A stretch of 64,000 nt of DNA from Macrotis lagotis (taxonomy: Eukaryota > Chordata > Mammalia > Peramelemorphia > Peramelidae), in assembly GCF_037893015.1 (NCBI RefSeq), contig NC_133658.1, forward strand, positions 145,133,982 through 145,197,981, read 5' to 3'. Of this stretch, positions 57,970-58,330 are shown in pieces. The position numbers were made by a program, and so were the translations under genes. The notes beneath the pieces were generated by a model. That model did no database searches and was not told the DNA's origin. It saw nothing but the letters and a program-made list of their open reading frames with translations. Each line of letters starts with the position of its first letter. Position 1 is the first letter of the stretch.

Positions 57970-58054
57970 CTTGCAGTGAGTGGAGCTGACCGGGATGCCC
58001 ACGTTTGAGGCTAAGAGAACGGTTAGCGCACACATTACTTCCACGCAAAACCCA
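57970..58054 (-). CDS. SLC20A2: Candidate mutually exclusive SLC20A2 exon 10b
   Basis: An unexpected second copy of exon 10. It has exactly the same length (85 nt) and phases as 10a: T completes the split Ser codon, then [16 protein letters not shown] and [12 protein letters not shown]. The acceptor has a long pyrimidine tract (CTCGTTGTTTCCACAG) and the donor is AAG|GTACTG, weaker than that of 10a. Of 28 residues 17 are identical, and most changes are conservative: I574V, L576V, F580L, V583L, I584L, I588V, L590I and T594S in human numbering. The Glu575 and Ser593 equivalents are kept. There is no stop and no frame damage. Seen: sequence, phases and splice sites. Inferred: alternative use in place of 10a. 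It could be a silent relic, but the synonymous divergence argues for coding constraint. Confidence 0.82.
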
Positions 58055-58190
58055 CTGTGGAAACAACGAGAGAAAGAGGAAGAAGGGGCGATGGAGGCTC
58101 GGCGCGGACCGGGCGAGGGAGGCCCTGGCCATGCGTGCACGCGGCGGCGGGCCGGGCGCCTTGGCCTCCCAGGCTGGGCTCCGCGGCCCC

Positions 58191-58220
58191 GGCCCGGCCC
58201 GGCCCGGCCCGGCCCGGCCG
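58191..58220. repeat. GGCCC pentamer array in the intron between exons 10a and 10b
   Basis: Six tandem GGCCC/GGCCG units lie in the 191-nt intron that separates the two exon 10 copies. On the transcript this is a CCGGG run close to the 10a donor, able to form strong secondary structure. Confidence 0.9.
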
Positions 58221-58245
58221 GCTGCAGGCGCTCGGCGGAGCCTAC

Positions 58246-58330
58246 CTTGCAGTGAGTCGTACTGACGGGGAGTCCGATATTGGAAGCGATCACCACGGTG
58301 AACGCCGAGGCCAGCTCGATGGTGAAGCCG
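58246..58330 (-). CDS. SLC20A2: SLC20A2 exon 10a (canonical copy of tandem pair)
   Basis: The ordinary exon 10 (85 nt). It begins with C completing the split Ser codon, then reads [16 protein letters not shown] and [12 protein letters not shown], matching the human segment at about residues 571-598. It contains Glu575 (in TIELA) and Ser593 (in PVSTT), residues reported as critical for phosphate transport in human PiT-2. The acceptor is preceded by TGTTTTCCTTTGCCCCCGCAG and the donor is AAG|GTAGGC with G at +5. It ends on a whole codon, so exon 11 joins in phase 0. A second, diverged copy of the same exon lies 191 nt downstream. Confidence 0.95.

Follow-up and report, generated by a model that had tools for sequence, protein, structure and literature searches.

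The window analysed here, a 64,000-nt stretch of genomic DNA, carries the 3′ part of SLC20A2 on its minus strand; when human PiT-2 was aligned to it in translation, the exons from residue 205 onward were located within it. Upstream on the same contig lie a piece matching PiT-2 residues 169–204 and two pieces matching the phosphate transporter family PHO4 without stops, the furthest of which ends at C1:145234921. The matched SLC20A2 exons likewise contain no stops. Between exon 9 and the last exon, exon 11, there are two exon-like segments, which we term 10a and 10b (Table 1). The GC content of the window is 0.395 but rises to 0.73–0.75 in a sharply bounded 1.5-kb stretch (58000–59499). This stretch contains exon 9, exon 10a and most of the coding sequence that precedes them, with 10b at its edge and exon 11 8 kb away. 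Elsewhere in the window, 368 codons without stops at 5602–6705 on the plus strand match L1 ORF1 domains (Transposase_22, 42 bits; Tnp_22_dsRBD, 28 bits), and an Rfam search returned no family at gathering scores within the window. An assembly artefact was rejected as the source of the exon pair: the window is without N, and the two exons are unlike at 33 of their 85 bases. A 501-base stretch had a single match in the genome, at 100%, in a search that skips very common words.

Table 1. Exons and splice signals around the SLC20A2 exon pair (window coordinates).
Feature	Position	Strand	Description
SLC20A2 exon 9	58509..58694	-	186 nt; its last bases, AG, open the split Ser codon; donor GTGAGT
Exon 10a	58246..58330	-	85 nt; Pfam PHO4 39.2 bits alone
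Intron 10a-10b	58055..58245	-	191 nt, open in frame of both exons
10b acceptor and pyrimidine tract	58055..58090	-	29/33 pyrimidines, GC-rich intron
Exon 10b	57970..58054	-	85 nt; Pfam PHO4 34.9 bits alone; recovered by genome-wide PHO4 search
10b donor	57964..57969	-	GTACTG, weak
Exon 11 (last), coding part and stop codon	49772..49936	-	in frame after 10a or 10b

An earlier note on this DNA had described two minus-strand segments of equal length, closely spaced, with AG/GT ends on both, the same entry phase and the same exit phase, encoding 28-residue peptides identical at 17 positions; each of these particulars was confirmed base for base. Either exon supplies the last base of the serine codon begun in exon 9, and each exits in phase 0 into KVGSVV of exon 11. 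The peptide encoded by 10a is identical to that of human PiT-2. A transcript spliced 9-10b-11 reads to the normal SLC20A2 stop, as does one spliced 9-10a-11. Joining exon 9 directly to exon 11, or including both exons (9-10a-10b-11), shifts the frame, and the resulting stop lies in the last exon; thus, a full transporter can come only from the use of one exon or the other. By reading frame, the pair fits the pattern of strictly mutually exclusive exons, in that the frame is lost both when the two are joined and when neither is used. Minimum intron length is ∼60–70 nt, and the spacing between 10a and 10b leaves no steric block to joining them; steric exclusion is one of several known mechanisms for such exons and is not required.

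The consequences of including both exons suggest a rival reading, in which 10b would be spliced together with 10a so that the altered C-terminus shuts down transport, making 10b a regulatory exon and not a swapping one. The frame shift would indeed replace everything after helix 9, and because the new stop falls in the last exon, such a message is not expected to undergo decay by the usual junction rule. However, under double inclusion there would be no reason for the PiT-frame peptide of 10b to be under selection, and the probability of this reading seems to us extremely slim.

Exon 10a, the intron and 10b together form one 211-codon open frame (57727–58359, minus strand), and retention of the intron would keep both helices in frame. 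The intron was open in 2912 of 5000 shuffles too, and we therefore dropped its read-through as evidence, an open frame here being expected by chance. The open frame after 10b, which extends to 57727, also bears on the possibility that 10b acts as an alternative terminal exon. The transcript would run from exon 9 into 10b and past the weak donor, reach the stop codon that directly follows 57727 and then a poly(A) site, and PiT-2 would be truncated after helix 9. An AATAAA lies 323 nt beyond the last base of 10b, approximately 80 nt past that stop, but AATAAA or ATTAAA occurs about 2.0 times per kb on the minus strand, so one is expected here, and this reading offers no explanation for why 10b matches exon 11 exactly in phase. 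We consider this truncated form very unlikely.

A search of the window with human PiT-2 detected 10b at E = 7.8e-8, which is not a chance match. When the whole genome was searched with the 10b peptide (3.66 Gb in 607 contigs, one of 934 Mb; these searches score only the best candidates), four places were found up to E = 10: 10b itself (3.7e-12), SLC20A1 exon 10 (5.1e-6), 10a (2.1e-5), and a broken copy of SLC20A1. The last of these, at C3:152024000-152027500 (L096), lacks introns, has many stops and is a processed pseudogene. A retrocopy as transcript evidence for 10b was rejected, since this sole intron-less copy seen derives from SLC20A1 and is broken.

Against Pfam PHO4 (PF01384; cut-off 33.7 bits), 10b alone scored lower than 10a, with both above the cut-off (Table 1), and the C-terminal half of the protein scored 226.2 bits with 10b and 230.2 bits with 10a, likewise above it. 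A whole-genome PHO4 search gave 16 matches, comprising six pieces of SLC20A1, six of SLC20A2, three of the broken SLC20A1 copy, and 10b. In this genome-wide setting 10b alone reached 31.9 bits, below the cut-off, and passed only when taken jointly with 10a, which lies next to it in frame; exon 10 of SLC20A1 (32.9 bits) likewise falls below the cut-off when alone. PDB chain 6l85_A matched 10b at E = 1.6e-7 and 10a at E = 9.8e-11. This phosphate transporter, TmPiT of Thermotoga maritima, has the same helix and the STTH motif but, being prokaryotic, is without such splicing. An origin of 10b from the N-terminal PiT repeat was rejected, as that repeat aligns only weakly to 10b (E 0.89), and none of 21 pattern matches to possible relatives in viral contigs held up.

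The passages of PMC3126765 on PiT2 transmembrane topology and residues place transmembrane helix 9 (TM9) at G571–S593 and list E575 and S593 as critical for transport; the earlier note had named the same two residues as important for phosphate transport. Exon 10b retains Glu575, Ser593 and the PVSxTH motif, with SSTH in place of STTH and with new cysteines at 573 and 578. Because E575 and S593 are both kept, 10b would point to fine tuning rather than to a different function. The position of the cysteines near Glu575 suggests, as something we infer, changed coupling or thiol sensitivity.

We compared these helices with a profile of prokaryotic PiT proteins built from 57 distinct segments, which came from 65 of 84 loci (4 plasmid, 80 genome contig) after the 19 loci without a pattern-found segment were dropped. 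The 80 contig loci were the best 80 of 580 when ranked by similarity to 10a, a choice that favours 10a if anything. On this profile 10a scored 43.3, 10b 40.8 and SLC20A1 40.4. The 10b residue was the commoner among the 57 segments at 5 of the 11 differing positions (573, 580, 583, 584 and 594) and the 10a residue at 3 (576, 577 and 590), with ties at 574, 578 and 588; the segment pattern itself fixes G571, P591, T/S at 595 and H/Q at 596 and limits the choice at 572 and 592–594. Cys573 occurred in 16 segments and Ser594, at one of the limited positions, in 43. In none of the 57 segments did we find V576, M577 or C578 of 10b, and Ser578 of 10a was also found in none. Judged by the positions at which its residue is the commoner one, 10b is plausible as a working PiT helix.

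The two exons differ in a manner that follows codon position, with differences at 10, 3 and 19 of 28 first, second and third positions, respectively. The corresponding dN is 0.30, and dS is beyond estimate by the NG86 method (24 by maximum likelihood); synonymous sites between 10a and 10b are saturated. In the same genome, 10a and SLC20A1 exon 10 differ at 3, 1 and 15 positions (dN 0.067, dS 1.8), and 10b and SLC20A1 exon 10 at 9, 2 and 18. By these counts the synonymous divergence of 10a from 10b, which the GC bias of the region may inflate, is at least that between the paralogues SLC20A1 and SLC20A2, whose split is usually placed in early vertebrates. In protein sequence, 11 of 28 residues separate 10b from 10a, versus 4 of 28 for SLC20A1 exon 10; thus, 10b evolves faster than the main exon. 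It differs alone, where 10a and SLC20A1 agree, at 574, 576, 577, 578, 583, 584, 590 and 594, and it has Leu580 and Val588 in common with SLC20A1. The 11 changes from 10a to 10b are mostly conservative (mean BLOSUM62 0.91).

Neutral divergence was simulated from 10a, without indels and with sites independent. When 32 random changes were placed on 10a, 13 of 200000 copies remained open while retaining at least 17 residues. In a second simulation 4 of 50000 copies did so, and none of the 50000 reached either the BLOSUM score or the family-profile score of 10b. With the observed codon-position pattern imposed, retention of at least 17 residues was no longer rare (2111 of 50000), and a single copy in 50000 reached the BLOSUM score of 10b and a single copy its profile score. 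None of 18 simulated, neutrally diverged copies matched Pfam PHO4 up to E = 10, in a search whose HMMER filters drop most weak matches. These results argue against the notion that 10b was never functional, a chance duplicate drifting neutrally whose likeness to 10a is left over from its origin: saturated synonymous change together with conservative protein change is not what such a duplicate would leave, and we find this notion scarcely credible. Exon 10b looks instead to bear evidence of long protein-level selection.

The splicing signals of 10b are of unequal strength, as ranked with position matrices that were not fitted. Its acceptor is strong, ranking 45 of 4222 AGs on the minus strand, and the pyrimidine count of its tract was reached by 2 of 20000 shuffles of the GC-rich intron. 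Its donor (AAG/GTACTG), with C at +4 and T at +5, ranks 368 of 2947 minus-strand GTs, versus 27 for 10a and 1 for exon 9. No yTnAy branch site occurs in the last 70 nt before 10b, where there are looser candidates only, at −38 and −4. The RBFOX motif TGCATG is absent from 57500–58700, and control by PTB is not claimed, since the two TCTT and no CTCTCT in the 10b tract are too few. The weak donor and the missing consensus branch site are the main evidence against free use of 10b, and they fit either regulated use or recent decay.

Recent decay is the main rival explanation: 10b would have worked for most of its history, its donor would have decayed in this lineage, and the exon would now be rarely or never spliced in. 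A 28-codon open frame survives easily for a while (a fraction 0.58 of randomly changed copies of 10a stayed open), and the donor and branch region look as a retired exon might. However, 10b has no stop and no length change, it keeps its splice dinucleotides, Glu575, Ser593 and the PVSxTH motif along with a strong acceptor, and the donor of SLC20A1 exon 10, GTACGT, is likewise off the textbook consensus. On balance we judge a retired exon unlikely, though it is the competitor to be taken most seriously.

The arrangement resembles tandem duplicated exon substitutions, for which PMC9741552 gives 236 curated events in human genes. As described there, these are neighbouring homologous exons of which one or the other is used, with key residues kept and changes that are conservative, and they often affect ion transporters. 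In 10a and 10b, a candidate pair seen in genome sequence, we found the same adjacent homology, like length and phase, splice sites on both exons, retained residues and conservative changes. The main texts of PMC9741552 and of PMC5740500, on human exon pairs, do not name SLC20. Among the mutually exclusive exons named in PMC5740500 are those of SLC25A3 and SLC39A14, likewise solute carriers in which the choice of exon alters a portion of the transporter. Of the two, SLC25A3 carries phosphate, as PiT-2 does. Both belong to transporter families unrelated to SLC20 and involve other exons, making the likeness convergent at most.

Another close comparison is exon 10 of SLC20A1 in the same genome (L095, 5024–4938 including the split codon), which begins from the same split Ser codon and shares 18 of 28 residues with 10b. 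We found no second exon 10 in SLC20A1, either in the 8 kb around its exon 10 or among the four genome places found by the 10b peptide. Pieces of the 10b peptide, searched as text, retrieved no paper in the open PMC literature, and titles and abstract starts there on SLC20A2/PiT2 splicing, residues and marsupials held no description of a second exon 10, in agreement with the earlier note, which knew of none. As far as searched, then, the kind of event, tandem duplicated exon substitution, is known, and the gene and helix affected are new.

Taken together, these data make it likely, in our judgement, that exon 10b is a functional, long-kept tandem duplicate of SLC20A2 exon 10, an alternative exon that swaps transmembrane helix 9. 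The pre-mRNA would be spliced in one of two ways: 9-10a-11 would yield the usual PiT-2, and 9-10b-11 a PiT-2 in which helix 9 and the hairpin motif that follows it are changed. The frame would enforce one-or-other use, and neither or both would give a changed C-terminus. With its weak donor, 10b would be a regulated, minor choice, probably confined to some tissue or stage. The isoform carrying it most likely still transports sodium and phosphate, with tuned kinetics. Thus read, the SLC20A2 gene probably makes two kinds of transporter. The two isoforms proposed in the earlier note are thereby given firmer shape as the products of a homologous alternative exon under apparent long protein-level selection, in which one helix, TM9 with E575 and S593, is replaced; the altered affinity, ion coupling or receptor use that it also proposed may follow from that replacement.

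We also raise, tentatively and with more doubt than conviction, the possibility that the duplication dates back to the SLC20A1/SLC20A2 split or precedes it. An unrecognised second PiT-2 with a cysteine-bearing helix 9 would then have persisted in some vertebrates over hundreds of millions of years, and would have been lost or overlooked in others, including human.

PMC6872723 gives SLC20A2 as a causative gene for familial brain calcification in humans. The alternative helix sits at the very residues that set phosphate transport. If the proposal is true, a natural second helix 9 would amount to a mutagenesis experiment carried out by evolution at those residues; the existence of two natural forms would make SLC20 sodium/phosphate coupling testable by their comparison, and would raise the matter of why some lineages need a second form.
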